Assembly: GCA_027491215.1 (NCBI GenBank)
Contig: JAIXWP010000083.1
Location: 1-46,302, forward strand
Origin: Flavobacteriales bacterium
GTDB lineage: Bacteria; Bacteroidota; Bacteroidia; Flavobacteriales_D; Sanyastnellaceae
Direction of reading: 5' to 3'
DNA: 46,302 nt
The notes below the pieces were generated by a model. That model searched no databases. It saw only the letters and a program-made list of their open reading frames with translations, and had not been told where the DNA came from. Below are positions 1,454 through 20,234 of this stretch, one piece after another (within the stretch, counting starts at the first letter, position 1; each line of letters begins with the position of its first letter). Position numbers and translations under genes: made by a program.

Positions 1454-4400
1454 ATGAGAGGAATATTTACTTTTTTACAAAGTGCGAAACACCTTGTGGC
1501 CGCCATCATTTTAATGTTTGGTAGCATTGGCGCTGTAGCTCAATTCGATACTGAATTCTGGATGCCACCTATTTGGGATGTTTCCAATATCGACAGAAAC
1601 AGCCCGTCAAACTTGTTCATTACAACCCCGTTTGATTTTCCTGTCAATGTTCAAGTGACCACATCGGATGGTACCACTTTCGTTTTTAATGGAACTGTCA
1701 CTTCGGGAAGTCCGCTTTCAGTGCCACTTACACCTGTTCTTGGGCAAACAAACATTGAAGGAGTTCCAAGTACCAACCAAGGTCTGCACATTACCTCATC
1801 AGCACCAATTCAGTGCACACACAAAGTTGCCGGTGGAACCAACCAGACCTTGGTGATTCTCAAAGGAAAAAATGCATTAGGACAAGAGTTTTACTGTGGT
1901 TCTCAAGTAAGAAATTTGAACTCTAACTATGGTCCTGAAGAATATCACTTCATCTCTGTAATGGCGATGGAAAATAACACACAGGTTACTTTCCAAACTC
2001 CATTTACCATGTATGGTTCTGCAGGAGCTCTTGCTAATCCACATGTAGTAACTCTTCAAGCTGGACAGAGCTATTTGATTCGTGGTAATAGTCCTACCCA
2101 GCACGTAGCAGGCGCACGAGTTACATCAAACAAAGACATTGTAGTTAATAGCGGATCAACTCACACCCGTATCTCTGGAACCGGCGCCAACGCCGCAGAC
2201 GGTGGAACAGACCAGCTAGTTCCGATTGGACTTGCAGGTACCGAATGGGTAATCATAAAAGGTAACAACAACTTCCCGTGGGACTATGCAATCGTTGTTG
2301 CAACACAAAACAACACCAACGTGTACATTGACGGTTCTGCAACTCCAGTTGCAACTATTAACGCTGGTCAGTTTTTCGATTGGACAACCACTGGAACATT
2401 TGGAGCACCGCACTATATCCGCACGGATCGCAGAGCATATGTCTATCACGTTTCGGGTTGCTCTCAAGACGAAGAAGTAGATATGTCTGCAATGCCCGAA
2501 ATATCGTGTACAGGCTCTCGATACATCGAGTTCTCTCGTTTCAATCAAGCAGGCCTTCTAGAAAATCTGCAGGTACTTATTCCACCAACAGCAGAATCGA
2601 CACTTAAATTAAATGGTGTTGATTACGACTTAATACCTGGGGTTGTTATTCAGAATGTTCCAGGCCTTACAGGTTGGAGAGCTGCAACATATCCAAATGC
2701 TAGCTTACCTACTAACAACATTCTTACCTCACAAGGTTTCTTTCATGCTGGTTGGCTGACCGGTAATGGAAGCACTGGTGCCTTTGGATATTTATCCGGA
2801 TTCGATGATGCATTTGAATTCCAAGATCCTTTTGCTGCAGACCCAATCCCAACAACTATTTATAATGTTGCTACACTATGCCAAGGTCAAAGCGTCGACC
2901 ATTGCCTCAAGGTGTATAGCTGCGGTGCAAACAACTTCATAGATAGCTTTACAGGTAATGAAGGAAACGTTGTTATCGCTCCACCCTCTTCCCCATCAGA
3001 CACTTGTTTTAGATATACCGCACCTTTCAATTTTGTTGGTAGAGACACTGTCACTTTTGTGGTTTCTAATGAGTTTGGATTTGAAGGTTCAATCGACCTC
3101 ATATTCACAGTTGTCAATCCAGACACACCGATTAATGCTGGTCCCGATCAATTCACTTGTGGTGCGTCATCTGCAACGCTTTCTGCAATCAATCCTGATC
3201 CACTTGCAGTGGGATATTGGACTGTATCTGTCGGATCTGGTGTACTTGTGAATCCGAATTCACCGACGACAGTAGTGAACAACCTTTCCGCTGGAGTCAA
3301 TGCCTTTATATGGCACCAAGACTATCCATCATGTGGAGTAAACAAAGTGGACCTCGTTCAAATAACAAGATTCTCTGGCACACCTCCAGCTGCTGCTGCG
3401 GGTCCAGATGCGAATCTTTGTTCAAGCACTACTTATATAATGCAAGCAAACAATCCAAGCGTTGCTGCGATTGGAACATGGTCTATCACTTCTGGTAGTG
3501 CTACGATTGCAAACATTAATCTTGCGAATACACTCATCACCAACCTCGCAATTGGTGTCAATACTTTCAGCTGGAGTATCAGCAATGGGCCATGTCCCGG
3601 TGGTGATACTACGGATGAAATAGTCATTCGTGTATTCAACCAAAATCACCCTGCTGCGAATGCAGGGCCTGATCAATCCATTTGTGGAACATCAAGTGGT
3701 GGAGCAGGTATTACCGCTTCACTCACTGCAAATGCTGCACAAGTGCCTGCAGTTGGGTCGTGGTCTGTGATCGCTGGTACAGGAACTTTCGCAAATGCGA
3801 ATTCACAGAATACAGTAGTCAGTGGATTGAGTATTGGAACAAATACATTCCGATGGACAATTAACAATGGTCCTTGCGGAACATTGACTGACGAGGTAAC
3901 AATTATTGTGTTCAGTCCAACGTCTCCAAACGCGACTGCGGGTCCAGACCAAACCGTTTGCTTGCCAACCAACTCAACAAACCTAGCAGGTAATACTCCA
4001 ACAGCACCGGCAGTTGGAACCTGGACCGTCATTGCTGGTTCTGGAGCATTTGCAAATGCAAACTTACCTACCACTAGTGTATCTGGTTTGTCACTTGGAA
4101 CCAATACTTTCAGATGGACTGTCAATAACGGACCGTGTCCAGGTGCAGTAACATTTGATGAAATTACGATTGTTGTTTTCCCTGTATCACAACCAACAGT
4201 AAATGCAGGACCCGATCAATCATTCTGTTTTACTTCTACACCAATATCTGCAACACTTGCAGGAAGCGCCATTACCGCTCCTGGGACAGGACTATGGACC
4301 GTTGTGAGCGGAACTGCAACTTTCGCAAACGCATCTAATCCTAACACAACAGTGACTGGATTAAGTCTTGGAAATAACGTGCTGCAATGGACAGCATCCA

Positions 4401-7400
4401 ATGGGACCTGTGATCCCTCGGTGAGTGATCAAATGATCATTACTGTTTTCAATGGAAATATCTCTACAGCTTTTGCTGGTCCAGATGGTGCAATTTGTGC
4501 GCCTGCGACAACATACACCATGTCTGCCACCGCAGCAGTTGCTCCATCCACAGGTTTATGGACTCAAACAAGCGGACCAAGCGGTGCAGCTATTAGCAAC
4601 ACATCCTCACCGACAACACAAATCACAAACCTGACTTCTGGGGTTTATGTATTTAGATGGACCATCCAAAATGGACCATGCGGTAACACAGTATTTGATG
4701 AAATGACATTGAACGTTTTCAATGCCTCTTCACAAACAGCTAATGCTGGTCCTGACCAATCACTTTGCTTCACAGGTATCGTTGGAGTAAGCGCTACAAT
4801 GGCTGCTAATACGGTCACTGCGCCATCAACAGGAACATGGACATTGGTGACTGGTGGTGGAACCATTGTTACACCAAACAGCCCAACCACAACCATTTCT
4901 AATTTACCCGTTGGTATAAATATCTTCCGTTGGACAGTCAACAATGGAGTATGCGGTAGCTCAAATGACTTGGTTGCCATTTTTGTATTTAGCTCATCGC
5001 AAGCTTCGGCCAATGCGGGTCCTGATCAAACAATTTGTTCTTCAACTACAACAGTAAACATGGCGGGTAACAACGTTACTTCACCAGCCACTGGAGTTTG
5101 GACACAAGTAAATGGTCCATCGACATTGACATTCGCGTCCGCATCAAGCGCAAACACATCAGTTACTGGAATGGTAGCTGGTGTTTATACATTGCAATGG
5201 ACTATCAATAATGGACCATGTTCTTCACCATCTATTGTAAGTGATCAGATGACATTGACTGTATTCCCTGCAGCACAAACCGCAGCGAACGCAGGACCAG
5301 ATCAGAGCATTTGTAATACAACAACATCAATAAACTTAAATTCTAATACTCCAATTTTCCCAGCAACAGGTCAGTGGAGTATTGTATCCGGAAGCGGTAC
5401 ATTCACTAATTCTACTTCACCGGTTACATCAGTAACAGGTCTTGGAGTTGGTGTGAATTGTTTCAGATGGACTATCAATAATGGACCATGCGGTTCACCA
5501 ACAATTGATGAAGTTTGCATCACAGTATTTGATGTAAATGCTCCAGCTGCAAATGCAGGAACCGATCAATCATTCTGTTTGCCTCAAACATCAACCACGC
5601 TTAACGCTAACAACGCCACCTTCCCAGCGACGGGAGCTTGGACAGTTATAGCGGGAACGGGAACATTTTCAAATGCGTCTTCATCATCTTCATCTGTTTC
5701 TGGGTTGAGCTTGGGTACAAATACATTCCGTTGGACCATCAATAATGGTTCATGTGGCACCATCACATTTGACGAAGTAACCATTACGATTTTCAATAGT
5801 GCGCTCGCTCCTCCAAATGCAGGTCCAGACGCTAACCTATGTACTCCAACAAGTACTTATGTTATGCAGGGAAGTACTGTCGCTACTCCTGCTACAGGTG
5901 TATGGACACTGATTGCGGGTACAGGTACAATTGCCAATCCAAACAGCCCAACTACATCAATATCTGGATTAGGAATTGGTGCAAATATTTTCAGATGGAC
6001 AATTCTGAATGGTCCTTGCCCAGCAGGTCAGGATTTTGATGAAATGACCATTTTCGTTTATGACGAAAACCAACAAAACGCAAATGCAGGACCCGATCAA
6101 TCTCTTTGCTTTACAGGCATTGTAGGCGTGAGCGCAACGATGGCCGCATCACCAGTTATCTTCCCTGGCACTGGTCAATGGACAGTAATTCAAGGAAGTG
6201 GAACGTTTGCCAATGCATCAAATCCTAACACACAAATTCTAAACATTGGTGTTGGTCAAAATATATTCCGATGGACAGTAAACAATGGTCCTTGCGCGAA
6301 TGCAACAACATTTGACGAAGTAACTGTTCTTGTTTATTCTGGTGCACAAGCAGCAGCAAATGCAGGTCCGGACCAATCACTTTGCTCTACTAACCCAAGC
6401 ACAACACTTGCTGCAAACAGTATTACCTTCCCGGGTACAGGTCAATGGACAGTCGTGCAGGGCACTGCAACTTTTGCAAATGCATCAAGTCCTACAACAA
6501 CTGTTTCTGGACTAAGCACTGGAACAAATGTTTTGCAATGGACCATCAATAATGGCCCTTGTGCACCTAGCACTACAACCGATCAAGTAACAATACTTGT
6601 TTACAATAATGCACAAGCGCCAGCTAACGCAGGCCCAGATTTTACGGCATGTACTTCACAAGGATCAATTACTTTAACTGGTACATCATTCACATTCCCA
6701 GCAACAGGAACGTGGGCATTAGTAAGTGGATCAGCAACAATTACAAACCCTAACCAAGCGACTACTACTGCAACTGCGCTTGGAGTTGGAACAAATATTT
6801 TTAGCTACACTATCAACAACGGTCCTTGTGCAGCGCCAACTGTAGACCAAGTAACGGTCATTGTTTATTCTGCTTCACAAGCAGCTTCTAATGCAGGACC
6901 TGATCAATCGATTTGTTTGCCAACGAACAGTGTATCACTTTCTGCAAACAGTTTGATTTCGCCTGCTACAGGTGTTTGGACACTTATTTCTGGATCCGGA
7001 ACTATTACATCTCCTAACACACCAAATACAACTGTAACAGCATTAGGAATAGGAGAAAATATTTTCAGATGGACCATTTCAAATGGACCATGTTCACCAA
7101 CACAAACAGTTGACCAAGTAAGTATCATTGTGTTTAACAATGCGCAAGCAGCTGCCAACGCAGGACCTGATCAAAGTTTCTGCGAACCCGTTTCGAGTGC
7201 AACACTTGTTGGTAATACTGCAACATTCCCAGCATCGGGTCAATGGACATGGGTATCTGGACCAACTACTCCAGTGATTACCGCACCATCAAGTGCAACA
7301 ACACAAGTAACAGGTTTAGGAGTTGGTGCCAATGTATTTAGATGGACCATCACGAATGGACCTTGTGCACCGGCATCAACAAATGATGAAGTAACCATCT

Positions 7401-10400
7401 TCATTTTTGATGCGGATCAACCTGCAGCGAATGCCGGACCTGATCAATTCTTATGTTCACCTGCATCAACAACGCAGCTTGCAGGAAACAACGCTCTTTT
7501 CCCTGCGACAGGCACATGGACATTGATTCAAGGAACAGGAACAATTGCAAATGCAAACTCTCCAACTAGTAATATTTCTGGATTATCAATTGGAGAAAAT
7601 ATTTTCAGATGGACCGTTTCAAATGGACCATGTAGCAACTCAACAACATTTGACCAAGTAAGTATTTTCGTTTACGATAGTAATGCTCCAGCAGCAAATG
7701 CAGGACCAGATCAAAGTATATGTACACCAACAAGCTCTATAGTGATGGCTGCAAACGCAGCAGTATTCCCTGGAGCTGGAACGTGGACATTGATCTCGGG
7801 CTCAGGTATTATTGTAAATGCAAATTCTCCAACAACAACAATCAACAACTTAGCCGTTGGACAAAACATATTCCGTTGGACCATCAACAATGGTGCATGC
7901 GGATCACAAACAACATTCGACGAGGTAAGTATTTTTGTATTCTCGAATAGCTCACCAAGTGCGAATGCTGGCCCAGACCAAAATATTTGTACTCCAATCA
8001 CCTCAACAACGCTTGCAGGTAGTGTTCCAGTTTTCCCATCAACAGGAGTTTGGACTTGGGTTTCAGGACCATCGGCTCCTGTAATCTCAAACCCAAGCAA
8101 TCCTGCAACTGCAGTTAGTGGTTTGACAGTGGGTGTACACGTATTCCAATGGACGGTGAACAATGGTCCTTGTGCTGCGGGTATTACAACAGATCAAATG
8201 ACCATCAATGTGTTTGATGGAAATGCGCCTCTTGCGAGTGCCGGAGCGGATCAAGAAATTTGTTTACCTACGACAAGTACAAACATGACTGCTACTCCTG
8301 CAACCTTCCCTGGAAGCGGAGTTTGGACACTCATTCAAGGTTCAGGAGCCATCACTAGCCCAACTTCTGCTACAACATCTATCACTGGTTTAACAGTAGG
8401 AGAAAACATTTTCAGATGGACAGTTTCAAATGGTAATTGTACTCCTTCATCATCATTTGATCAAGTAAGTATTTTCATCTTTGATAACACTCAAGCAGCT
8501 GCAAACGCAGGAGCAGATCAGAGTTTCTGCGAACCGACGTCATCAACGACACTAGTCGGAAACAACATCACATTCCCTGCAACGGGTCAGTGGACGTGGG
8601 TTTCAGGACCAACGACACCAACTATCGTCTCCGCAAATAATCCATCAACAGCCGTAACAGGACTCGGTGTTGGGGCGAATGTATTCCGTTGGACTATTGA
8701 TAATGGACCTTGCGCACCATCAACAACACAAGATGAAATCACCATTCTCATCTTTGATATTGATCAGCCCGATGCAAATGCTGGTCCCGATCAATCATTG
8801 TGTTCGCCAACATTCAACACATTACTTTCAGGTAACGTAGCAACCTTCCCATCGAGCGGTCAATGGACATTGATCTCTGGAACAGGAACCATTGTCAATC
8901 CAACATCTCCAACAACTGCAGTAACAGGATTGAGTATCGGTGAAAACATTTTCAGATGGACAGTGAGCAATGGGCCTTGTGCGAATGCTACAACATTTGA
9001 CCAAGTAAGCATCTTTGTATTTGATAGTGCTGCACCATCAGCAACTGCTGGACCAGATCAAAGTATTTGTACTCCTACAGGTAGTGTTGTAATGGCTGCA
9101 AATGCAGCTGTATTCCCAGGAACGGGTGTTTGGACATTGGTTTCGGGATCTGGACTAATTGTAAATCCAACATCACCAACAACCACAATAAACAACCTTG
9201 CTGTTGGACAAAATATCTTCAGATGGACCATTAACAATGGTGCATGTGGATCTCAAACAACCTTTGATGAAGTAAGTATTTTCGTGTTCTCTGAATTCTC
9301 ACCAATTGCAAATGCAGGTGAAGATCAAGACTTGTGTACACCGATTACTTCAACGAATCTTCAAGGTAGTGTCCCCATTTTCCCTTCATCAGGATTCTGG
9401 ACATTTATCTCTGGACCTTCTACTCCAACCATTGTAGATCCAACTAATCCTAACACACTTGTAACGGGATTAGCAATAGGACCAAACGTATTCCAGTGGA
9501 CCGTAACGAACGGACCTTGTGCATCAGGTGTTACCACTGATCAAGTAACTATCACATTATTTAATGGTGGTGCGGCAACACCAAACGCTGGACTTGATCA
9601 AGAAATTTGCTCTCCATTAAGCAGTGTGCAACTTGGAGCAGATGCCGCAGTCTTCCCTGGAGTCGGCGAATGGACACTTATTAATGGTACTGGAACATTT
9701 GTAGATATCAATGATGAAAGTACCATCGTAAACGGATTAACCATTGGTGTAAATACGTTCCGTTGGAGCGTAAACTATTCAACATGTGGTTCTCCATTTG
9801 ATGAAGTAGATATCATCGTTTACGACTCAAGTCAAGGCGCAGCGGTTGCTGGACCAGATCAACAAATCTGTACACCTGACAACAGTGTAAGCATGGCTGC
9901 TGACGCGGTGCTTAGTCCTGGCTTTGGAACATGGTCACTCGTCTCAGGTAGCGGTGCAATTCAAAACATAAACGATCCAAATACACTCATTACTAACTTA
10001 CCAGTTGGAGAAAACATCTTTGTTTGGACAGTGTATAACGGTTCTTGTTTGGCCCCTGCATTAACGACAGATACTGTAAGCATCTTCGTATTCTCCACTG
10101 ACAACCTCGATGCAAGCGCTGGTCTAGATCAAAGCTTCTGTACTCCAACAAACAGCGCTCTATTGACCGGTAGTGCATTGATATTCCCATCAACAGGAAT
10201 ATGGACTATCGAACAAGGAACAGGTAATATCGCAGATCCAACTTCACCATTCACAACGATCACAGATTTAACAGTAGGTGAAACGATTTTAAGATGGACT
10301 GTAAATAATGGACCATGCCCTAATACAATCAGTGCAGATGAGATGAGCATATTCATCTTTGATGAAACACAAGCAGCAGCAAACGCTGGTGCCGACCAAG

Positions 10401-13400
10401 AGTTGTGTTCAACAAATCCATCAACTACTCTCGCTGGAAACAATGTGATTTTCCCTGCGACTGGATTGTGGACCGTTGTTCAAGGAACCGCAATTTTTGC
10501 TGATGCGACAAATCCTTCTACTACTGTTTCTGGATTGAGCATTGGAACAAATATTCTTCAGTGGACCATCGAAAACGGACCATGCGATCCATCATCTACA
10601 ACTGACCAAGTAACAATCATTGTATTTGATAACGCACAAGCTCCAGCAAACGCAGGACTTGATATCGATGCGTGTACATCACAAGGTGGTGTAACTGTAA
10701 ATGGAACTGCATTCACATTCCCTGCAACAGGCGTATGGGCACTAGTGTCAGGAAGTGGTACTATCACCACTCCAAACAGTGCAACAACTACAATTACCAA
10801 CCTAGGTGTTGGAACAAATGTATTTAGCTATACTATCAATAACGGGCCATGTGCAGCGCCTTCTGTTGACTTCATCAACGTTGATACATTCGATGAATTC
10901 CAACCTGAAGCGAATGCTGGTGATGATCAAATTTTATGTTCTCCTATTTCCACAACTACTGTTACAGGAAGTGCTGTCACTTATCCTGCAGTAGGTACTT
11001 GGACATTGGTTCAAGGCACGGGAACGATCGTGTCTCCAAATAGCCCAACGACAACCATCAATGGTTTATCCATCGGAGTGAATGTACTTAGATGGACGAT
11101 TTCAAACGGACCATGTGATCCAACTGAAACGTTTGATGAATTAACTATTACCGTTTACAATTCTGCTCAAGGTCCAGCTCAAGCTGGCAACGATCAAGAA
11201 ATTTGTACGCCTTCCAACACCGTAAACATGACAGCCGATGCTGTACTTGCTCCAGGATTTGGTACTTGGTCAATCATCGCGGGAAGCGGGGTATTCACTG
11301 ATATAAACGATCCTAATACCCTTGTTACTAATTTACCTGTTGGAGAAAATATCTTCGTATGGACTGTTTATAATGGAACATGTCTTGCTCCAGAATTGAC
11401 AACAGATACGGTAGGCATATTTGTATATGAAACGGATAACTTGGATGCTGATGCAGGTGTTGACCAAAGCTTCTGTACTCCTGTATCATCTGCAACGCTA
11501 ACAGGCAGTGCGTTGATTCAGCCATCTACTGGTCTTTGGACCATCCTGCAAGGAACAGGTGTGATCAGTAATCCAACTTCTCCAACAACAACTATTACAG
11601 GTTTGACAGTTGGTGAAACAGTTGTAAGATGGACAGTTAACAATGGACCATGTCCTAACACTATTACCGAAGACGAATTGAGCATCTTCCTCTTTGATGA
11701 AAATCAAGCAGACGCGAATGCTGGTCCTGATCAAGAATTGTGTACTCCAACAACAAGCACTACACTTCAAGGAAATGCAGTAACGTTCCCTGCCATCGGA
11801 ACATGGACTGTTCTTTCTGGTACTGGAATATTCGCTGATGCAAATGACCCTAACACAACTGTAACAGGCTTGTCTGTAGGACAAAATAGCTTCCATTGGA
11901 CCATCAATAATGGCCCATGTGCAAATGGAATCACAACCGATGCGGTAAATATTTTCGTGTTCGACGAGAATAATCCAATTGCTAATGCAGGCACGGATCA
12001 AGAGGTTTGCTTGCCTACAACAACTGTAACACTTCAAGGTAGTTCTTATACTTTCCCTGCGAACGGTGTATGGACATTCTTACAAGGCTCTGGCACGATC
12101 ACAAACATCAATGATCCTGGAACAACTGTAACTGATCTTGCAGTCGGAACAAATATTCTCGTGTGGTCTGTTTCAAATGGACCATGTGCTCCGAGTATAA
12201 CGACAGACCAAGTTGAGATTCGTGTTTACGATGTCGATGCACCACTTGCAAATGCAGGTGCAGATCAAGAATTGTGCGAGCCGAATACTACTACTAACAT
12301 GGCTGCGCTCGTGCCGACAACTCCGGGCTTTGGCACATGGAGCGTACTATCAGGTGCACCATCAGTAACCATTGCAGACGTCAATGATCCTTTCACTGAA
12401 GTCACTGGTTTAGCCGTTGGTCAAACCATCTTATTGTGGACTGTCTACAATGGACCTTGTGATAATAATGGTTCTTTCGACGTGGTATCCATCTTCGTAT
12501 TTGAGTCTTCTCAACCTGCGGCAAATGCAGGTCCTGATCAAGATATCTGTACGCCACAAACCACTGCAAACCTCGTTGCAAATAATGTCATCTTCCCAGC
12601 TACGGGTACATGGACATTGCAAAGTGGTTCGGGAACTATTGTGAATCCAACAAGCCCCGTAACCATCGTTGAAAATCTGGGTGTTGGTGCCAACGTATTC
12701 TGTTGGACTATCAGCAACGGTCCTTGTGACCCTCCGACAACAACTGACTGTGTAACAATCAATGTATTTGATTCTGGTCAATCGGCTGCTAACGCTGGTC
12801 CTGATCAAGAATTCTGCTTACCTACTACATCGAGCGTCCTTGTAGGATCTGCGATCGTTGGTTCAGCTGTTGGTCAGTGGAGCATCGTTCAAGGTGGTGG
12901 TTTCATCTCTAATATTTCTTCTGCTATCACAAATATTTCGAACCTTCCTCAAGGTGAAAACATCTTCAGGTGGACGGTAGATAACGGTAGCTGTGGTACG
13001 ACACAAGATGAGGTTTCAGTTTTCATCTATAACAATGACGCTCCGGAAGCAGATGCTGGAGAAGATGTGTCATTCTGTACTCCGACGAGCACTTACACCA
13101 TGACTGCAAACACTCCAGAAATTCCTGGACTTGGAACATGGAGTATTGTAAGCGGACCAGGTCTTACAGGAACTGGTACCATCGATGACATCAATAATCC
13201 AACTGCAAACATTAGCGGTTTGGTTATCGGTGAAAACAGATTCTCATGGACGATCTACAATGGACCATGTGAAGTTCCAACTACTGATCTCATCTCCATC
13301 TTCATCTATGATGAAAACCAACCAGTAGCTGACGCCGGTGAAGATCAAGAAATCTGCTTGCCTCAAACAGCTGTTGATCTTGACGCTAACGATCCTATCT

Positions 13401-16400
13401 TCCCTTCTGCGGGTCAATGGACTATTCTTCAAGGTAGCGGAACTATTACAGATATAAATGATCCTAACACTTCTGTAACTGACCTTGCTCAAGGAAATAA
13501 TATTCTACAATGGACAACCAATAACGGACCTTGTGATCCATCCATCACTTCCGATGTTGTAACAATCTCTGTATTTGATCCAAACGCTCCTGAAGCGGAT
13601 GCTGGTCCAGATCAATCATTCTGTGAACCAGTTAGCAGTACCAATATGGCAGCGCTTCTCCCTTCTATTCCAGGTGTTGGCACTTGGACACTTGTTGGCG
13701 GAACTGGAACAATTGCAGATATCAATGATCCAAATACATTGATAACAGATCTTGTTGTTGGCGAAAACTGCTTCCTATGGACCGTTTATAACGGACCATG
13801 TGAAGAGCCTACAGAGGATGTTGTGTGCATTTACATTTACCCGTCTGATCAGCCAATCGCAGATGCTGGTGAAGATCAAGAGCTTTGCACTCCACTCACC
13901 GAAACACAGCTCACCGCTAACGCAGTCGAATTCCCTGCTCTCGGTGTATGGACACTCATAAGCGGATCAGGAACCATCAATGATATCTACGATCCAAATA
14001 CTATTGTTACCGATCTTGGCGATGGTGTGAACCAATTCCTATGGGCAATTGACAATGGTGCTTGTGATAATCCTATCTCATCTGATATCGTGGAAGTACG
14101 TGTCTATAGCGAAGATCAAACAGATGCTAACGCAGGATTAGATCAAGAATTCTGTCTTCCAACAAACAGTACTACTGTGAATGGAAATGAATTAATCGCA
14201 GCAGCAACTGGCACGTGGACGTTAATCGATGGCGGCGGAACAATTGTGAACCCAACAAGCTCAACTACTGACATCGTAGATCTACCAATCGGAAATAACA
14301 TATTCGTCTGGGAAGTATATAACGGACCTTGTGGTGTAACAACAGATACCATCACCATCTCTATTTTCAATCCTTCTGAAGTGATTGCACTTGCTGGTGA
14401 CGATGCATCTTATTGTACACCTGACGATACACATTGTATGTCAGCTAGCGTTCCATCAGAACCAGCAATCGGTACATGGATTTTAATTACGGGTATTGGA
14501 AATATTGAAGACCCAAATGATCCAAACACTTGCATCACAGGATTAGGAGTTGGAGAAAATATCTTCATGTGGTGTATCGACAATGGGCCATGTGGCTCGA
14601 CTTGCGATATCATGTCGATATTCGTTTACAACCAAGCGACTCCTGACGCGAATGCAGGACCAGATATCGAAATTTGCTTACCAACAAATGCGGTAGCTAT
14701 GGCTGCTTCATCTGCTGAGTTCCCAGCAATTGGTCAATGGTCACTTTTATCCGGAAGCGGAACCATCACTGACCTGAACAGTCCTAACGGTATCATGGCC
14801 GACCTAGGACTTGGAACCAACGTTTTTGTTTGGACAGTTAATAATGGTGTTTGTCCGAATGGTATCACTTCTGATACTGTTGAGGTTCGCGTATTCGATC
14901 CAAGTGCAGAATTACCAAATGCTGGACCTGACCAATTTATCTGTACGCCACAAAATACAGTGACAATGGCCGCAAACGCCGCACAAGATCCTTCATTCGG
15001 ATTCTGGAACTTGATTCAAGGAAGCGCAACGATTGCTGATATCAATGATCCGCTCACTGAAGTATCTGACCTCGGTGTAGGAATAAATATTTTAACATGG
15101 AGCTTCTACAACAGTAACTGCTCTGAATTCCCTCCAACGGATACGGTACGTGTACTTGTGTATGATGAAGGTCAGCCACCTGCAGATGCCGGTCCTGATC
15201 AAGAGTTCTGTTTCCCAACAAATTCTGCAACGATGGCAGCTAACGAAGCAATCGTGCCTGCAATTGGAACATGGACACTTGTCAGTGGAACTGCTTCATT
15301 CAGCGATATCAATGATCCGAACGCAACCATAACTAATCTATCACCAGGCACAAACGTATTTGTGTGGACGATTGATAACGGACCATGTGCGAATGCAATT
15401 ACAACTGATACTGTTGAAATGAGAGTATTCGTTCCGGATGCACCAGTAGCTGACGCAGGCCTAGACCTCGAGCTATGCACCCCAATTGATTGTATCGAAT
15501 TGAGCGCACTCAATCCTATTGACCCACAAGTTGGAACTTGGAGCTACGTGAGCTCTGTGAATGGCGCTGGTAATATTCCATTCGGATCAATCGATGATCT
15601 AAATAATCCTCAAGCAAACATCTGTGCGCTTGCTGTAGGTGTACATACACTGCAATGGAATATATACAATGGGCCATGTAACAACGACAGCAACGATCAA
15701 CTCGTAATAAGCGTGTATGATAACACCGCACCTGCTGCAAATGCGGGTGACGATATCTTCCTCTGCGCGCCTGAAAACGCAACACAGCTGCAAGCCAATG
15801 CTGCAATCTTCCCTGCGGTCGGAACTTGGTCAATCGCCTCTGCGATAGGACCAAACGGACCGCTTACCACTGGAACATTCGGCGATTTGAATGACCCTCT
15901 CACTTCCTTCACAGGACTTGAAATTGGTATATACACATTGATCTGGACTATTGACAACGGACCATGCGGACCGCCAACTACGGACACCGTTATTATTCAA
16001 GTCAATAATCCTGCTTCACCAAATGCTGATGCAGGACCTGATCAAGAATTCTGCTTGAACTTCGCTGATGCAACAATGGCCGCGAATACTCCGCTATTCC
16101 CTGCCATTGGATCATGGGAAGCAATCAGCTTTGATCCAACAGGAACTATCGTTGATGCAAGCAACCCAAGCACATTGATCTCCGACATTCCATTGAACGA
16201 ACACTTGTTCGTGTGGTGTATTGACAATGGATCATGCGCGAATACTGTAACATGTGATACTGTTTCAATCTATGTTAATGACATCACCATTGCTGCGGCA
16301 AATGCTGGAGAAGATCTATTCTTCTGCGGTGCTCCTGATTCATTGATCATGCAAGCAAGCATTGCAGTAGGACTTGCAGAAGGTGTCTGGACATTTGATG

Positions 16401-17113
16401 ACAACGTCTATGATTTCACAGATTCTACATTCCATGAATCAATTGTGTATGGTTTCCAAAATGGATTGAACACATTCACTTGGACCGTTGACAATGGTGC
16501 ATGCGGAATTAGTTCTGACGAAATTGTGATCACTGTATTTGATCCAACACATCCTCCAGCGGAAGCAGGATTGAGTCTAGAAATTTGTGAAAACAAATTC
16601 GAACCATTCAATCTAAATGCTGAACCACCAACATTCCCTGCTACAGGATGGTGGACAGTTGTAGACGGCCCTGCAATTCTTCAAGACTCTACCAACTATG
16701 ACGCAGAAGTACTTTCTCTCGGAGAAATATTGGTTGAGCTAGAAGATGTGCCAAGCACACTTGTATGGACCATAGATAATGGTGTTTGCGGAATCACACA
16801 AGATAGTCTTGTACTAATTCTTGAAGATTGCTTGACGGTAGAAGTGCCTGATGCGTTCTCACCAAACGGCGACGGTGTCAACGATACATTCGTGATTCCA
16901 AATCTCGAAAGCTATCCAAACCATTCATTGAAAATCTTCAACAGATGGGGAGCTCAAGTATTTGAAGCCGCTCCATACATGAGTGATTGGGATGGTAAAT
17001 CGAAACACCCAGCAACGATTGGTGAAGATCTACCAGTATCAACATACTACTACATCCTCGACCTAGGTACAGGAGAAGAAGCGTTCCACGGATTTGTTTA
17101 CTTAAAACGATAA
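1454..17113 (+). CDS. Giant T9SS-exported surface protein, 51 tandem beta domains, CHU_C sorting domain (SprB-like organisation)
   Basis: The 5219-residue protein begins with a signal peptide (about residues 1-29, ending AVA before QFD). Residues about 30-470 resemble the IgGFc-binding protein N-terminal family (TEFWMPP, SAPIQCTHK, TDQLVPIGLAG, AYVYHVSGC). Residues about 470-558 look like a bacterial cadherin/Ig-type domain (FNFVGRDTVTFVVSN). From about 560 to 5128 there are 51 tandem domains averaging 89.5 residues, each with NAGPDQxxC near the start, FPATGxW, a TTxVxGLxxGxN segment, FRWTxxNGPC and DEVxIxVF at the end. The last 90 residues (PDAFSPNGDGVNDTF ... NRWG ... SDWDGK ... GFVYLKR) are a CHU_C/gliding-motility-associated C-terminal domain, a type B T9SS sorting signal. 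It lies 4 bases upstream of a SprF/PorP-like gene, the arrangement seen for sprB and sprF. A surface adhesin is the likely role; gliding itself is unproven. Confidence 0.9.
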   Translation: MRGIFTFLQSAKHLVAAIILMFGSIGAVAQFDTEFWMPPIWDVSNIDRNSPSNLFITTPFDFPVNVQVTTSDGTTFVFNGTVTSGSPLSVPLTPVLGQTNIEGVPSTNQGLHITSSAPIQCTHKVAGGTNQTLVILKGKNALGQEFYCGSQVRNLNSNYGPEEYHFISVMAMENNTQVTFQTPFTMYGSAGALANPHVVTLQAGQSYLIRGNSPTQHVAGARVTSNKDIVVNSGSTHTRISGTGANAADGGTDQLVPIGLAGTEWVIIKGNNNFPWDYAIVVATQNNTNVYIDGSATPVATINAGQFFDWTTTGTFGAPHYIRTDRRAYVYHVSGCSQDEEVDMSAMPEISCTGSRYIEFSRFNQAGLLENLQVLIPPTAESTLKLNGVDYDLIPGVVIQNVPGLTGWRAATYPNASLPTNNILTSQGFFHAGWLTGNGSTGAFGYLSGFDDAFEFQDPFAADPIPTTIYNVATLCQGQSVDHCLKVYSCGANNFIDSFTGNEGNVVIAPPSSPSDTCFRYTAPFNFVGRDTVTFVVSNEFGFEGSIDLIFTVVNPDTPINAGPDQFTCGASSATLSAINPDPLAVGYWTVSVGSGVLVNPNSPTTVVNNLSAGVNAFIWHQDYPSCGVNKVDLVQITRFSGTPPAAAAGPDANLCSSTTYIMQANNPSVAAIGTWSITSGSATIANINLANTLITNLAIGVNTFSWSISNGPCPGGDTTDEIVIRVFNQNHPAANAGPDQSICGTSSGGAGITASLTANAAQVPAVGSWSVIAGTGTFANANSQNTVVSGLSIGTNTFRWTINNGPCGTLTDEVTIIVFSPTSPNATAGPDQTVCLPTNSTNLAGNTPTAPAVGTWTVIAGSGAFANANLPTTSVSGLSLGTNTFRWTVNNGPCPGAVTFDEITIVVFPVSQPTVNAGPDQSFCFTSTPISATLAGSAITAPGTGLWTVVSGTATFANASNPNTTVTGLSLGNNVLQWTASNGTCDPSVSDQMIITVFNGNISTAFAGPDGAICAPATTYTMSATAAVAPSTGLWTQTSGPSGAAISNTSSPTTQITNLTSGVYVFRWTIQNGPCGNTVFDEMTLNVFNASSQTANAGPDQSLCFTGIVGVSATMAANTVTAPSTGTWTLVTGGGTIVTPNSPTTTISNLPVGINIFRWTVNNGVCGSSNDLVAIFVFSSSQASANAGPDQTICSSTTTVNMAGNNVTSPATGVWTQVNGPSTLTFASASSANTSVTGMVAGVYTLQWTINNGPCSSPSIVSDQMTLTVFPAAQTAANAGPDQSICNTTTSINLNSNTPIFPATGQWSIVSGSGTFTNSTSPVTSVTGLGVGVNCFRWTINNGPCGSPTIDEVCITVFDVNAPAANAGTDQSFCLPQTSTTLNANNATFPATGAWTVIAGTGTFSNASSSSSSVSGLSLGTNTFRWTINNGSCGTITFDEVTITIFNSALAPPNAGPDANLCTPTSTYVMQGSTVATPATGVWTLIAGTGTIANPNSPTTSISGLGIGANIFRWTILNGPCPAGQDFDEMTIFVYDENQQNANAGPDQSLCFTGIVGVSATMAASPVIFPGTGQWTVIQGSGTFANASNPNTQILNIGVGQNIFRWTVNNGPCANATTFDEVTVLVYSGAQAAANAGPDQSLCSTNPSTTLAANSITFPGTGQWTVVQGTATFANASSPTTTVSGLSTGTNVLQWTINNGPCAPSTTTDQVTILVYNNAQAPANAGPDFTACTSQGSITLTGTSFTFPATGTWALVSGSATITNPNQATTTATALGVGTNIFSYTINNGPCAAPTVDQVTVIVYSASQAASNAGPDQSICLPTNSVSLSANSLISPATGVWTLISGSGTITSPNTPNTTVTALGIGENIFRWTISNGPCSPTQTVDQVSIIVFNNAQAAANAGPDQSFCEPVSSATLVGNTATFPASGQWTWVSGPTTPVITAPSSATTQVTGLGVGANVFRWTITNGPCAPASTNDEVTIFIFDADQPAANAGPDQFLCSPASTTQLAGNNALFPATGTWTLIQGTGTIANANSPTSNISGLSIGENIFRWTVSNGPCSNSTTFDQVSIFVYDSNAPAANAGPDQSICTPTSSIVMAANAAVFPGAGTWTLISGSGIIVNANSPTTTINNLAVGQNIFRWTINNGACGSQTTFDEVSIFVFSNSSPSANAGPDQNICTPITSTTLAGSVPVFPSTGVWTWVSGPSAPVISNPSNPATAVSGLTVGVHVFQWTVNNGPCAAGITTDQMTINVFDGNAPLASAGADQEICLPTTSTNMTATPATFPGSGVWTLIQGSGAITSPTSATTSITGLTVGENIFRWTVSNGNCTPSSSFDQVSIFIFDNTQAAANAGADQSFCEPTSSTTLVGNNITFPATGQWTWVSGPTTPTIVSANNPSTAVTGLGVGANVFRWTIDNGPCAPSTTQDEITILIFDIDQPDANAGPDQSLCSPTFNTLLSGNVATFPSSGQWTLISGTGTIVNPTSPTTAVTGLSIGENIFRWTVSNGPCANATTFDQVSIFVFDSAAPSATAGPDQSICTPTGSVVMAANAAVFPGTGVWTLVSGSGLIVNPTSPTTTINNLAVGQNIFRWTINNGACGSQTTFDEVSIFVFSEFSPIANAGEDQDLCTPITSTNLQGSVPIFPSSGFWTFISGPSTPTIVDPTNPNTLVTGLAIGPNVFQWTVTNGPCASGVTTDQVTITLFNGGAATPNAGLDQEICSPLSSVQLGADAAVFPGVGEWTLINGTGTFVDINDESTIVNGLTIGVNTFRWSVNYSTCGSPFDEVDIIVYDSSQGAAVAGPDQQICTPDNSVSMAADAVLSPGFGTWSLVSGSGAIQNINDPNTLITNLPVGENIFVWTVYNGSCLAPALTTDTVSIFVFSTDNLDASAGLDQSFCTPTNSALLTGSALIFPSTGIWTIEQGTGNIADPTSPFTTITDLTVGETILRWTVNNGPCPNTISADEMSIFIFDETQAAANAGADQELCSTNPSTTLAGNNVIFPATGLWTVVQGTAIFADATNPSTTVSGLSIGTNILQWTIENGPCDPSSTTDQVTIIVFDNAQAPANAGLDIDACTSQGGVTVNGTAFTFPATGVWALVSGSGTITTPNSATTTITNLGVGTNVFSYTINNGPCAAPSVDFINVDTFDEFQPEANAGDDQILCSPISTTTVTGSAVTYPAVGTWTLVQGTGTIVSPNSPTTTINGLSIGVNVLRWTISNGPCDPTETFDELTITVYNSAQGPAQAGNDQEICTPSNTVNMTADAVLAPGFGTWSIIAGSGVFTDINDPNTLVTNLPVGENIFVWTVYNGTCLAPELTTDTVGIFVYETDNLDADAGVDQSFCTPVSSATLTGSALIQPSTGLWTILQGTGVISNPTSPTTTITGLTVGETVVRWTVNNGPCPNTITEDELSIFLFDENQADANAGPDQELCTPTTSTTLQGNAVTFPAIGTWTVLSGTGIFADANDPNTTVTGLSVGQNSFHWTINNGPCANGITTDAVNIFVFDENNPIANAGTDQEVCLPTTTVTLQGSSYTFPANGVWTFLQGSGTITNINDPGTTVTDLAVGTNILVWSVSNGPCAPSITTDQVEIRVYDVDAPLANAGADQELCEPNTTTNMAALVPTTPGFGTWSVLSGAPSVTIADVNDPFTEVTGLAVGQTILLWTVYNGPCDNNGSFDVVSIFVFESSQPAANAGPDQDICTPQTTANLVANNVIFPATGTWTLQSGSGTIVNPTSPVTIVENLGVGANVFCWTISNGPCDPPTTTDCVTINVFDSGQSAANAGPDQEFCLPTTSSVLVGSAIVGSAVGQWSIVQGGGFISNISSAITNISNLPQGENIFRWTVDNGSCGTTQDEVSVFIYNNDAPEADAGEDVSFCTPTSTYTMTANTPEIPGLGTWSIVSGPGLTGTGTIDDINNPTANISGLVIGENRFSWTIYNGPCEVPTTDLISIFIYDENQPVADAGEDQEICLPQTAVDLDANDPIFPSAGQWTILQGSGTITDINDPNTSVTDLAQGNNILQWTTNNGPCDPSITSDVVTISVFDPNAPEADAGPDQSFCEPVSSTNMAALLPSIPGVGTWTLVGGTGTIADINDPNTLITDLVVGENCFLWTVYNGPCEEPTEDVVCIYIYPSDQPIADAGEDQELCTPLTETQLTANAVEFPALGVWTLISGSGTINDIYDPNTIVTDLGDGVNQFLWAIDNGACDNPISSDIVEVRVYSEDQTDANAGLDQEFCLPTNSTTVNGNELIAAATGTWTLIDGGGTIVNPTSSTTDIVDLPIGNNIFVWEVYNGPCGVTTDTITISIFNPSEVIALAGDDASYCTPDDTHCMSASVPSEPAIGTWILITGIGNIEDPNDPNTCITGLGVGENIFMWCIDNGPCGSTCDIMSIFVYNQATPDANAGPDIEICLPTNAVAMAASSAEFPAIGQWSLLSGSGTITDLNSPNGIMADLGLGTNVFVWTVNNGVCPNGITSDTVEVRVFDPSAELPNAGPDQFICTPQNTVTMAANAAQDPSFGFWNLIQGSATIADINDPLTEVSDLGVGINILTWSFYNSNCSEFPPTDTVRVLVYDEGQPPADAGPDQEFCFPTNSATMAANEAIVPAIGTWTLVSGTASFSDINDPNATITNLSPGTNVFVWTIDNGPCANAITTDTVEMRVFVPDAPVADAGLDLELCTPIDCIELSALNPIDPQVGTWSYVSSVNGAGNIPFGSIDDLNNPQANICALAVGVHTLQWNIYNGPCNNDSNDQLVISVYDNTAPAANAGDDIFLCAPENATQLQANAAIFPAVGTWSIASAIGPNGPLTTGTFGDLNDPLTSFTGLEIGIYTLIWTIDNGPCGPPTTDTVIIQVNNPASPNADAGPDQEFCLNFADATMAANTPLFPAIGSWEAISFDPTGTIVDASNPSTLISDIPLNEHLFVWCIDNGSCANTVTCDTVSIYVNDITIAAANAGEDLFFCGAPDSLIMQASIAVGLAEGVWTFDDNVYDFTDSTFHESIVYGFQNGLNTFTWTVDNGACGISSDEIVITVFDPTHPPAEAGLSLEICENKFEPFNLNAEPPTFPATGWWTVVDGPAILQDSTNYDAEVLSLGEILVELEDVPSTLVWTIDNGVCGITQDSLVLILEDCLTVEVPDAFSPNGDGVNDTFVIPNLESYPNHSLKIFNRWGAQVFEAAPYMSDWDGKSKHPATIGEDLPVSTYYYILDLGTGEEAFHGFVYLKR
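3134..16837 (+). repeat. 51-unit protein-coding tandem repeat (about 268 bases per unit)
   Basis: I counted 51 units by their AGxDxxxC start. Unit 1 begins at about 3134 and unit 51 at about 16562, giving a mean spacing of about 268 bases (89.5 residues). Every unit has two framework cysteines, one after AGPDQ and one in NGPC, which probably form a disulfide in the extracellular protein. The units are diverged at the DNA level, so this is an old array rather than a recent expansion. The fold is probably a PKD/Ig-like beta sandwich, by inference from length and alternating hydrophobic pattern. Confidence 0.9.
7154..9841 (+). repeat. Tandem duplication of a five-unit block inside the array
   Basis: Units 16-20 (7154-8500) match units 21-25 (8501-9841) one for one. 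Both blocks begin with an SFCEP unit containing WTWVSGPTTP, continue with an LCSP unit, an SICTPT unit with MAANAAVFPG, a CTPITST unit with GSVPxFPS, and end with an EIC unit. The block length is 1347 and 1341 bases. Similar five-unit offsets occur elsewhere in the array, for example units 7 and 12 (1340 bases apart). Confidence 0.75.
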
Positions 17114-17117
17114 GAAC

Positions 17118-18047
17118 ATGTCAAAGAGAATTATAATCATATCATCATTGTTCTTGTTGCTTGTCAACGCAATACAATTGCGAGCTCAACAAGACCCACA
17201 GTTTTCTCAATACATGTTCAATATTTTGAGCATTAACCCAGCATACGCAGGAAGCGCAGACCGCATTAGCGCTGTTGGTATTCATCGATCTCAATGGGTG
17301 AAATTTGAAGGAGCGCCAATTACACAAACTGTAACGGTGCACTCTCCTTTGAAAAAAGAATCCATCAGCATCGGCGGAACTATCATCAATGATAAGCATG
17401 GCCCTGTCAATCAGACTTCCATTTTTGCTGATGTGAGCTATCGCATTTTCATGAAAAATTATAAGCTCGCTTTTGGATTAAAAACAGGAATGAATTTGTA
17501 TAGCGCAAACCTTCTTGATCTAAATCCATTCGTGGAGGGCGACCAAGCGTTTCAAGCAAATATCTCCACCAAACCCCTACCAAACTTCGGTTTCGGAGTG
17601 ATGTGGTACAGCCAGCGCTGGTATTTAGGTCTAAGCACACCACGCCTGCTTCAAAACAAATTGCTCGAGGGAGAACTTCCAGACTTCATCAACAATAAAG
17701 AAAGAACACACTTATTCTTGATAGCAGGATACGTTTGGGATATCAACTATTATGTGAAGTTCAAACCGACCATCTTGCTAAAAGCTGTAAACGGCGCGCC
17801 TCCCGGAGCAGACGTGACTGCAAACTTTATGTTCTTCGATAAATTCTGGATCGGTGCATCGTACAGATGGAACGACGCAGTTGGTGCACTCGTGCAATAT
17901 GAAATCAATAACAAACTGAAGTTCGGATACGCATACGATTATGTAACTAGCGACCTAGGGAGATATACTTCCGGTAGCCATGAAGTAATGATCGGTTATG
18001 ATTTCGGAAAAGGAAACAAAGGAGATGTTTCTCCCCGTTTCTTCTAA
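17118..18047 (+). CDS. PorP/SprF family type IX secretion membrane protein
   Basis: This 309-residue protein has a signal peptide (cleavage near LRAQ, residue 24) followed by QDPQFSQYMFNILSINPAYAGS, the hallmark of the PorP/SprF family. The rest alternates polar and aromatic residues as in an outer-membrane beta barrel and ends near Phe. SprF is needed for secretion or attachment of the giant adhesin SprB in Flavobacterium, and PorP-like proteins work with type B sorted cargo. It starts 4 bases after the giant gene and 12 bases before the OmpA-family gene, so the three are almost certainly one operon. A dedicated partner role for the upstream adhesin is an inference from this context. Confidence 0.88.
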   Translation: MSKRIIIISSLFLLLVNAIQLRAQQDPQFSQYMFNILSINPAYAGSADRISAVGIHRSQWVKFEGAPITQTVTVHSPLKKESISIGGTIINDKHGPVNQTSIFADVSYRIFMKNYKLAFGLKTGMNLYSANLLDLNPFVEGDQAFQANISTKPLPNFGFGVMWYSQRWYLGLSTPRLLQNKLLEGELPDFINNKERTHLFLIAGYVWDINYYVKFKPTILLKAVNGAPPGADVTANFMFFDKFWIGASYRWNDAVGALVQYEINNKLKFGYAYDYVTSDLGRYTSGSHEVMIGYDFGKGNKGDVSPRFF

Positions 18048-18059
18048 TCCCTTAGAAGC

Positions 18060-20234
18060 ATGAAAAAAACACTATATTATTTTACTCTGTTTGTTGTTGC
18101 GATGATGTTCGCACAAACAACTTTTGCCCAAAAAGCAAAGTTGGATGTCGCTCAGAAATACTACGATCAATTCGATTTCCGCACAGCTTCAGAAATCTAT
18201 AAAGACATTATGTCGAATCCAAAATATGCTAACGACACACTGGTGTTGGATTTGGCATTGGATTGCGAACTAAAGCTTTATCGATACGAAAGCGCTGAGA
18301 CATTGGTGCGTAAGCTCATAGAAATACAACCTATGAACACCAATCACCTTCACTCACTCGCAAGCCTACAAAAAGTGCAAGGCAAATACAGTGAAGCCGT
18401 GCTCACATACAAGCAAATTTTGGTAATCAATCCAAATGATGAAATCGCGAAACAGTATTCTAAAACTCCCGATTTCGCTTATAAACTCAGTAAGGATAGC
18501 ACTATTTATGAGATTCAAAATTCAAAGGTAAATTCTGAGGCAAGCGACTTCGCTGCGTCATTCTATACCAGCGGAAGATTAATCTTCGCTTCTTCTCGTG
18601 GCCTCGGCCCAGGCGCTGATCGTGCCTATGTTTGGAATGATCAACCCTATCTCAATAACTACATTGCAAATATCAAGGACGATAACACACTCGAAAACGA
18701 ACGTGTGCTCGGAGATGATATCAATAGCCGTTATCACGAAGGAACAATGACATTTGCGCCTGGTGAAAATCTTATTTATTTCACTAGAAATAATGTGCTC
18801 AACGGAAATGTAAACAAGGCAAAATCAGGAAGACTTTATCTCGGAATTTTTACAGCTAAATCTAATAGCGATGGAACTGTCTCCGATATGCAAGCTTTCC
18901 CTTTCAACAATAAAGAATACTCGCTTCAACACCCCACACTCACTAAAGACGGCAACCGTATTTATTTCTCAAGCAATATGCCGGGAACGATGGGTGGTAT
19001 GGATATCTGGTACAGCGAAAGAAAAGAAGGTGCTTGGCAAACACCTGTTAACATAGGTCCCAAAATCAACTCAAGTGGTGATGAGGTGTTTCCATTTATT
19101 TCAAATGATAGCACGCTATTCTTTTCTTCGAATGGTCAACTTGGCCTTGGTGGATTAGATATGTATTTCGCTGTATTGAAAGGCGATACAGTAGTGCAAA
19201 ACATGGGCTACCCCGCCAATTCACGCTACGATGATTTTGGTACTATTCTCTTTCCCGATGAAACAGTTGGTTTCTTCTGCAGCAACAGACCCGGCGGTAA
19301 AGGCGATGATGATATTTACGAATTCCGCATTTCCCCTCCAGATACAATCTATATCGAAGGACTCGTAGTGGATAGCAATACGCTTCAACCGCTCAGAAAT
19401 ACGCTGGTGACAATCACAAACGACGATGGTTCTGTTGTTCAAGCTCTCACTGACAATAACGGTAAATACACTATTGCAGCTCCTTACAAACCAATGATTC
19501 AAATCGAAGGTGAAAAGGATGATTATGAAAAAGCGAGTGTTACGATGCCTACAAACCCTCGTCTTACAAACTATACAGCTCCAGAACTTCGACTGAAGAA
19601 AGTTGATCTTCTTGCGGCCGGTAAAGTAGTCTATGACGTGGATGGTTCACCAGCCGAAGGTGCAATGCTCCGACTGATCAACTCAAAAGGTGTGGCTATA
19701 GACACTACTTATGCGGCAGCGGATGGATCATACAAATTTGTAATCGAAGAAAACTCGAAGTACGTTATCGAGGCTTCAAAGCAAGATTATGTGCTTCTTA
19801 CAAAAGACCTCAGCACCATTGGAAACTCCGCAAAAGTGATCAACACGGATTTCCGTTTGTTCAAGCTTGAAAAAGGAACGGTCGTTCGATTGGACAATAT
19901 CTATTACGACTACGGCAAGTCAGACATCCGCGCCGACGCTGCTGTCGAGCTTAACAAACTCGTAAGAATTCTAGTAGATAACCCTACAATGAAAATTGAA
20001 TTGAGCTCTCACACGGATGCGCGTGGTGGTGACGCTTATAACTTGAAACTTTCAGATGCACGTGCAAACAGCGCTGTGAAGTATATCATATCACAAGGTA
20101 TCACGAGCGATCGCCTTGTAGCAAAAGGTTATGGAGAAACTAAACTCCTCAATCAATGCGGTAATGATGTGAAATGTTCTGAAGAAGAACACCAATTCAA
20201 CAGAAGAACGGAATTTAAGATTCTCGATATCTAA
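18060..20234 (+). CDS. PorE-like OmpA family protein (TPR, beta-propeller, carboxypeptidase regulatory domains)
   Basis: This 724-residue protein has a signal peptide ending TTFAQ at about residue 24. The domain order is a TPR region (about 25-150), a WD40-like PD40 beta-propeller (about 165-430, with YFSSNMPGTMGGMDIWYS, FFSSNGQLGLGGLDMYF and FFCSNRPGGKGDDDIYEF), two carboxypeptidase-regulatory-like modules (about 435-600) and a C-terminal OmpA domain (about 612-724, with YYDYGKSDIR, SHTDARG and NRRTEFKI). PorE of the T9SS has the same order and contacts peptidoglycan. Many Bacteroidota also pair such genes with PorP/SprF paralogues. The gene follows the SprF-like gene by 12 bases and overlaps the convergent methyltransferase gene by 20 bases. 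It is more likely a locus-specific paralogue than the core porE, but this cannot be decided here. Confidence 0.85.
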   Translation: MKKTLYYFTLFVVAMMFAQTTFAQKAKLDVAQKYYDQFDFRTASEIYKDIMSNPKYANDTLVLDLALDCELKLYRYESAETLVRKLIEIQPMNTNHLHSLASLQKVQGKYSEAVLTYKQILVINPNDEIAKQYSKTPDFAYKLSKDSTIYEIQNSKVNSEASDFAASFYTSGRLIFASSRGLGPGADRAYVWNDQPYLNNYIANIKDDNTLENERVLGDDINSRYHEGTMTFAPGENLIYFTRNNVLNGNVNKAKSGRLYLGIFTAKSNSDGTVSDMQAFPFNNKEYSLQHPTLTKDGNRIYFSSNMPGTMGGMDIWYSERKEGAWQTPVNIGPKINSSGDEVFPFISNDSTLFFSSNGQLGLGGLDMYFAVLKGDTVVQNMGYPANSRYDDFGTILFPDETVGFFCSNRPGGKGDDDIYEFRISPPDTIYIEGLVVDSNTLQPLRNTLVTITNDDGSVVQALTDNNGKYTIAAPYKPMIQIEGEKDDYEKASVTMPTNPRLTNYTAPELRLKKVDLLAAGKVVYDVDGSPAEGAMLRLINSKGVAIDTTYAAADGSYKFVIEENSKYVIEASKQDYVLLTKDLSTIGNSAKVINTDFRLFKLEKGTVVRLDNIYYDYGKSDIRADAAVELNKLVRILVDNPTMKIELSSHTDARGGDAYNLKLSDARANSAVKYIISQGITSDRLVAKGYGETKLLNQCGNDVKCSEEEHQFNRRTEFKILDI

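Follow-up and report, generated by a model that had tools for sequence, protein, structure and literature searches.

What do extra cysteines do in a tandem array whose units already hold two, and how are they acquired two at a time? The question is raised by a stretch of 46,302 nucleotides from a Flavobacteriales bacterium (GCA_027491215.1, contig JAIXWP010000083.1; the whole stretch is called the window), which encodes a giant surface protein of 5219 amino acids. The protein is laid out as an N-terminal IgGFc_binding-like region (PF17517), 51 PKD-like units and a C-terminal type IX (type B) sorting domain. Extra cysteines, 14 residues making up seven pairs, were found in six of the 51 units (9, 36, 40, 43, 47 and 49, with four in unit 43). 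They are very probably optional cross-strand staples, that is, predicted disulfides, in the immunoglobulin (Ig)-like PKD units of a protein exported by type IX secretion. The features are listed below, with the pairs named after the strands that they join and their columns numbered in an 89-column model of the unit.

1454..17113, + strand: open reading frame of the giant surface protein, 5219 amino acids (PF17517, PF22352, PF13585, TIGR04131)
3137..16822, + strand: array of 51 units of about 87-96 amino acids each, two framework cysteines per unit
5291..5554, + strand: unit 9, F-G pair, Cys codons 5459 and 5516, columns 57/77
12527..12793, + strand: unit 36, F-G pair, Cys codons 12701 and 12749, columns 59/75
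13601..13864, + strand: unit 40, F-G pair, Cys codons 13769 and 13826, columns 57/77
14393..14653, + strand: unit 43, B-E pair, Cys codons 14435 and 14531, columns 15/47, and F-G pair, Cys codons 14573 and 14603, columns 61/73
15455..15742, + strand: unit 47, B-E pair, Cys codons 15491 and 15623, columns 13/49
16031..16303, + strand: unit 49, F-G pair, Cys codons 16217 and 16253, columns 61/73

A preliminary description of this DNA had counted seven extra pairs in six units, had given their offsets from conserved residues and had seen no unpaired extra cysteine inside a unit; all three statements agree with the aligned units. The single leftover cysteine, at position 89 of the final stretch (unit 51), is located outside the unit in the linker to the sorting domain, beyond the part of the array covered by that description. 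F- and G-strand cysteines occur together in five window units, alone in none and are absent from 46 (Fisher p = 4e-7, with the columns chosen post hoc). The rule that the two positions of a pair add up to a constant, as stated in the same description, is modest within the window, being reached in 1/30 of permutations, and homologues were therefore needed.

The homologue set comprised 39 loci from a species-genome scan and 52 stretches from genome searches (loci are given below by L numbers). With a single profile, 1550 units were collected from the window and these loci, 91 in all, and divided into a close set of 1211 (1205 distinct) and 339 more distant ones. The close set falls into two parts: 19 records with 571 units, the window among them, make up the window's family, and 21 loci with 640 units a second group. 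Of 114 genomes of the window's family, 18 have a match at E 1e-26 or better, and judged by contig name and length all 18 are represented. Seventeen loci of the second group hold complete 31-unit arrays with same-index identities of 50-88% among themselves and 37-47% to arrays of the window's family, and the remaining four were assigned by exclusion.

In the close set, window included, the constant sum holds without exception among one-to-one pairs: 52/52 F-G pairs sum to column 134 and 20/20 B-E pairs to column 62, with 8 F-G and 5 B-E rows that are not one-to-one left aside. In 20000 shuffles of the F-G partners, no more than 27 of the 52 pairs ever shared a single sum; for the B-E pairs the shuffle is uninformative (20/20 is reached by chance), since 17 of the 20 are 13/49. 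Counted over the 1211 units by column pair, or rung, both cysteines are present in 9 units at 55/79, 8 at 59/75, 14 at 61/73, 19 at 13/49 and 3 at 15/47, with no single cysteine at either column. At 57/77 there are 22 pairs, two units with column 57 only and none with column 77 only, and in both exceptions the partner cysteine is found at column 33 on the C strand. The six rungs thus hold 75 pairs, where independence would give joint counts of 0.01 to 0.44 per rung against the 3 to 22 observed. Many single cysteines at these positions, named beforehand as the case that would speak against pairing, were looked for, and no partnerless one was found at the 12 rung columns of the 1211 units. Three features were absent from the preliminary description. 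F-G and B-E pairs occupy only every second residue, and two further contact families, C-F and C-end/E-end, are found in relatives, with pairs at 35/52 (5) and 37/50 (2), which share another anti-diagonal (sum 87), and at 33/57 (2). The third is that almost all pairs belong to the window's family, where 74 of 571 units carry 84 pairs. None was found in the 640 units of the second group and only one in the 339 distant units (61/73 in L163). The other extra cysteines at strand columns of the distant units are unpaired, three units having one at column 36 and one unit at column 46; most of the remaining extra cysteines adjoin a missing framework cysteine. Within the family, pair-bearing units make up about half of the arrays in two related genera (15/31 in L070, 15/31 in L093, 10/16 in L095), number six in the window and in each of its two congeners and 9 of 41 in L094, and are none or one in the other arrays.

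The register was also read from units that lack these cysteines. The input of a mean-field coupling analysis was restricted to close-set units free of extra cysteines, 1119 distinct ones with an effective number of 891 at 80% identity, which makes the analysis independent of the cysteine pairs. Among 3328 column pairs, 59/75 ranked 1, 35/52 ranked 2, 55/79 ranked 6, 15/47 ranked 12, 33/57 ranked 13 and 57/77 ranked 19, followed more weakly by 37/50 at 57. The mean coupling z for F-G peaks at sum 134 (3.9; 2.5 at 132 and at most 0.5 at the others within five), and for B-E at sum 62 (2.1; 1.3 at 64 and 1.0 at 60). Individual F-G rungs 55/79, 57/77 and 59/75 reached z of 7.9, 5.7 and 14.6, and 61/73 reached 2.3, while the alternate rungs 54/80, 56/78, 58/76 and 60/74 gave -0.6, 1.2, -0.1 and 0.6; the hairpin-end pair 63/71 gave 3.5. 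The earlier proposal that strand pairing and register can be predicted from sequence is supported by the constant sums in homologues and by couplings that peak on the same anti-diagonals as the cysteines. Columns 58, 60, 62, 76, 78, 80, 16 and 48 are 95-100% large hydrophobic, so that the staple columns alternating with them should face away from the core, and ten of the 12 rung columns are less than 30% large hydrophobic.

An AlphaFold model of units 40-49 had a mean predicted local distance difference test (pLDDT) value of 83 and a predicted template modelling score (pTM) of 0.37, for which reason only its single units were used. Numbered by the residues of each unit and not by model columns, unit 40 has strands B 13-17, E 45-49, F 54-63 and G 71-80. 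Unit 43 has B 13-18 and E 45-49, with cysteines 15 + 47 = 62, and F 54-63 and G 69-79, with 61 + 71 = 132. The modelled strands of unit 47 are B 13-17 and E 53-57 (cysteines 13 + 57 = 70) and those of unit 49 are F 56-65 and G 73-83 (63 + 75 = 138). In these four units the modelled strands match the cysteine register to within a residue. Unit 43 modelled alone with 60 homologous units reached a pLDDT of 95.4, with strand B given as residues 14-15 only. The structure model and the coupling test have homologues in common, so that their independence is incomplete. The hydrogen-bond class of the paired positions does not follow from the strand ends, and the alternation of used positions would be compatible with non-hydrogen-bonded sites. 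The sum rule, the couplings and the modelled strands agree with one another, and all three place the two cysteines of a pair opposite each other on adjacent antiparallel strands.

Several observations weigh against the extra cysteines being staples in this register. Rungs 61/73 and 13/49 are weakly coupled (ranks 74 and 246 of 3328), and near the hairpin end the core-parity pair 62/72 has a higher z (3.8) than 61/73. Rung columns 57 and 79 are large hydrophobic in 69% and 53% of units, and relatedness was handled in the coupling analysis by sequence weighting alone. The F and G strand ends of the unit 40 model sum to 134, and its cysteines to 133 (57 + 76). Thirteen complete units among the 1211 either have an unpaired cysteine at some other position or lack one of the framework cysteines, and the entire second group does without staples (0/640 units), so that their benefit stays putative.

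The unpaired cysteines were followed individually. An odd cysteine count occurs in 20 of the 1211 close-set rows: five truncated units, two cases in unit 2, and the 13 complete units. The latter are units 19, 22 and 38 of L094, unit 31 of L045, and units with a cysteine at column 56 (L051, L069), column 58 (L046, L047, L049, L063) or column 51 (L042, L043, L058). Their spare cysteines are situated at columns 36, 46, 51, 56, 58 or 83, never at the six rungs. An inter-unit bond was considered for the column-17 cysteines in unit 2 of L070 and L093 and rejected, as a further cysteine just upstream of the profile match makes the count even. An apparent half pair at column 52 in unit 24 of L093 was likewise dismissed, its partner sitting in an insertion. 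Singles without partner in the unit recur at otherwise hydrophobic columns in several genomes, at column 51 in unit 3 of L042, L043 and L058 and at column 58 in unit 20 of L046, L047 and L063 and unit 4 of 15 in L049. Unit 5 of L093 lacks the first framework cysteine and has a new one at column 83, which looks like a shift of the framework bond.

The history of the pairs was traced by matching family arrays from both ends (end-anchored position). Best matches fall at the same offset completely within the window's genus (16/16 and 9/9 for the window against L040) and partially between genera (for example 5/16 and 5/9 against L094). Most pairs are common to the members of a genus: 7 are kept between the window and L040, 6 are kept and 1 is absent in L039, and 13 are kept between L070 and L095. 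Between L070 and L093, 12 are kept, 10 are absent and one apparent half is the effect of the insertion. The ninth-from-last unit (window unit 43), whose matching units in L094 and L043 are also best matches, carries 61/73 in the window and L040, neither residue in L039 and 59/75 in L043. The staple of unit 9 is at 57/77 in the window's genus and at 55/79 in L094. Pairs are thus gained and lost whole, at many units and rungs, and the rung that is stapled in a given unit varies between its orthologues from different genera. Collapsed by orthology, 35 unit-by-rung placements are counted, of which 22 are F-G placements across four rungs, all of them matched (exact permutation 2e-11). On the whole, same-rung units of one array are no more alike than others (hairpin identity 0.415, background 0.426), and the earlier suggestion of gain at several positions is supported by this result together with the 35 placements.

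The arrays themselves, compared for the window, L039, L040, L041 with L052, L042-L070, L092, L093, L094 and L096, differ in length: 26 have 31 units (9 in the window's family and 17 in the second group), three have 41 and that of the window has 51. The G018 array, on two contigs that meet inside one unit (L041 and L052), has 24 + 38 - 1 = 61 units. These sizes are all 1 modulo 10, a rule broken by the 17-unit array of L096, and no collinearity exists between the 31-unit arrays of the two groups. The best paralogue is found at an offset of 5 for 18 of the window's 51 units and for 17 of the 24 in L052, from which arrays seem to grow by five-unit blocks.

For the protein as a whole, the PF22352 (K319L-like PKD) profile matched three stretches of the array with 121.7, 278.1 and 67.2 bits (gathering cut-off 27), the highest score belonging to a stretch of 1200 amino acids. 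The sorting domain scored 95.8 bits with PF13585 (CHU_C) and 57.8 bits with TIGR04131 (cut-off 35). The N-terminal 561 amino acids matched nothing in a PDB search up to E 0.1, and a search of viral structures gave one match below E 0.001, which is nameless. Two genes follow on the same strand:

17118..18047, + strand: PorP/SprF family type IX membrane protein, the next gene after the giant one (PF11751 E 4.7e-85; TIGR03519 278.7 bits)
18060..20234, + strand: PorE/OmpA-like protein with PD40, carboxypeptidase-regulatory and OmpA domains, with scores below the NCBIfam equivalog cut-offs

The PorP/SprF family is described as the binder of type B cargo of type IX secretion in PMC11205867. Judged by its domains, the 5219-amino-acid protein is predicted to be a type IX secreted surface protein of the type B cargo class, and its sorting domain lets it be expected outside the cell.

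The family of the units and their Ig-like beta-sandwich fold are shared with the PF22352 domains of human KIAA1837 (2yrl) and AAVR (6ihb, 6nz0). The window units differ from these in having two framework cysteines in nearly every unit and the optional F-G and B-E pairs; no cysteine was seen in the aligned stretches of 2yrl and 6nz0. The closest solved relative is the grappling hook protein A (GhpA) of Aureispira sp. CCB-QB1 (9flp, 9fly). The unit 43 model matched 9fly 4761-4845, part of the hook protein base, with Z 12.1 (84 residues, 31% identity), 2yrl with Z 10.8 and 6ihb with Z 9.5. Eleven matched stretches of GhpA are located at 4761-5720, and against window units 1-12 only its stretch 4541-5753 scored positive, stretches before 4541 being below zero. 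According to a passage in the review PMC11205867 that does not name Aureispira, grappling hooks are heptameric assemblies of a protein secreted by the type IX system.

Outside the cell the cysteines would be oxidised, and the resulting staples on the outer faces may stiffen or protect chosen units of a putative long surface stalk against pulling or proteases. An exposed unpaired cysteine would cross-link or misfold and would be selected against, which could explain why half-made pairs are not seen.

An unlikely alternative is that short gene conversion tracts covering a single hairpin spread the pairs within an array, with few events giving many copies. Hairpin-minus-rest identity for F-G is indeed 0.103 between same-rung units and 0.068 in the background, 2% of background resamples reaching the former value (the pairs are non-independent), and hairpin identity is highest between units 11 and 14, in L070 (0.64) and in L093 (0.60). 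Mean hairpin identity is not raised, however, no effect is seen for B-E pairs, and rungs differ between units of one array as well as between orthologous units. Hairpin conversion is not supported as the main source, and may account for single cases.

That the pairs are redox switches, strained disulfides easily reduced so that units change state on reduction, is quite improbable, even though PMC4354306 and PMC3912940 call cross-strand disulfides metastable and potentially redox-active. The protein is expected to be extracellular from its sorting domain, and the units and rungs involved differ between genera. CD4, ERO1 and AKT keep one-cysteine states, and none occurs here at the rungs; this contrast is suggestive only, as those proteins were chosen because one-cysteine states existed.

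Links between neighbouring units or molecules are very improbable: the few single cysteines at other columns (in the 13 complete units) could serve such a role, but the extra cysteines occur in pairs with a fixed register inside the unit, and the same columns couple in units without them. Chance, by which cysteine is merely rare and the pairs are few inherited events, has practically no probability left, for although most pairs are shared within genera, the 22 collapsed F-G placements all match and the joint rung counts are far above independence, so that chance with inheritance alone is rejected.

Cross-strand staples being retained as the very probable explanation, their novelty can be delimited. 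A pair bridging two neighbouring antiparallel strands, like those of the window, is known as a cross-strand disulfide (CSD, aCSDn) from PMC3912940 and PMC4354306. The pairs found here differ from known CSDs in being optional, in occupying several rungs in many homologous units and in having no single-cysteine state at the rungs. Cross-strand disulfides and the PKD fold were already known; as far as the searches show, a tandem array with the staple placed repeatedly at several rungs and no half states is new. Nothing on paired cysteine gain in tandem Ig repeats was found in the literature, searched by titles and the starts of abstracts and with most subscription journals outside the search, and queries aimed at the paired gain of cysteines brought up no paper.

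The joint origin of the two cysteines of a disulfide is an open puzzle, termed a 'conundrum' in PMC4354306, where one-cysteine states are reported to persist in CD4, ERO1 and AKT and a stepwise route via a single reactive cysteine is proposed. It is possible, if doubtful, that the arrays represent a natural disulfide scan, in which both cysteines are effectively gained or lost in one step with no lasting one-cysteine stage and the staple of an orthologous unit hops between rungs. If true, one-step gain would contradict the stepwise route where secreted proteins and their exposed sites are concerned. With tens of homologous units per protein, many genomes and several rungs per unit, the arrays provide tens of replicate events in one fold, and thereby a way to test stepwise against joint gain of cysteines. 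The cysteines alone also give a partial contact map of the unit, in agreement with the couplings from units without extra cysteine, and a list of the positions that are naturally stapled in this PKD domain.

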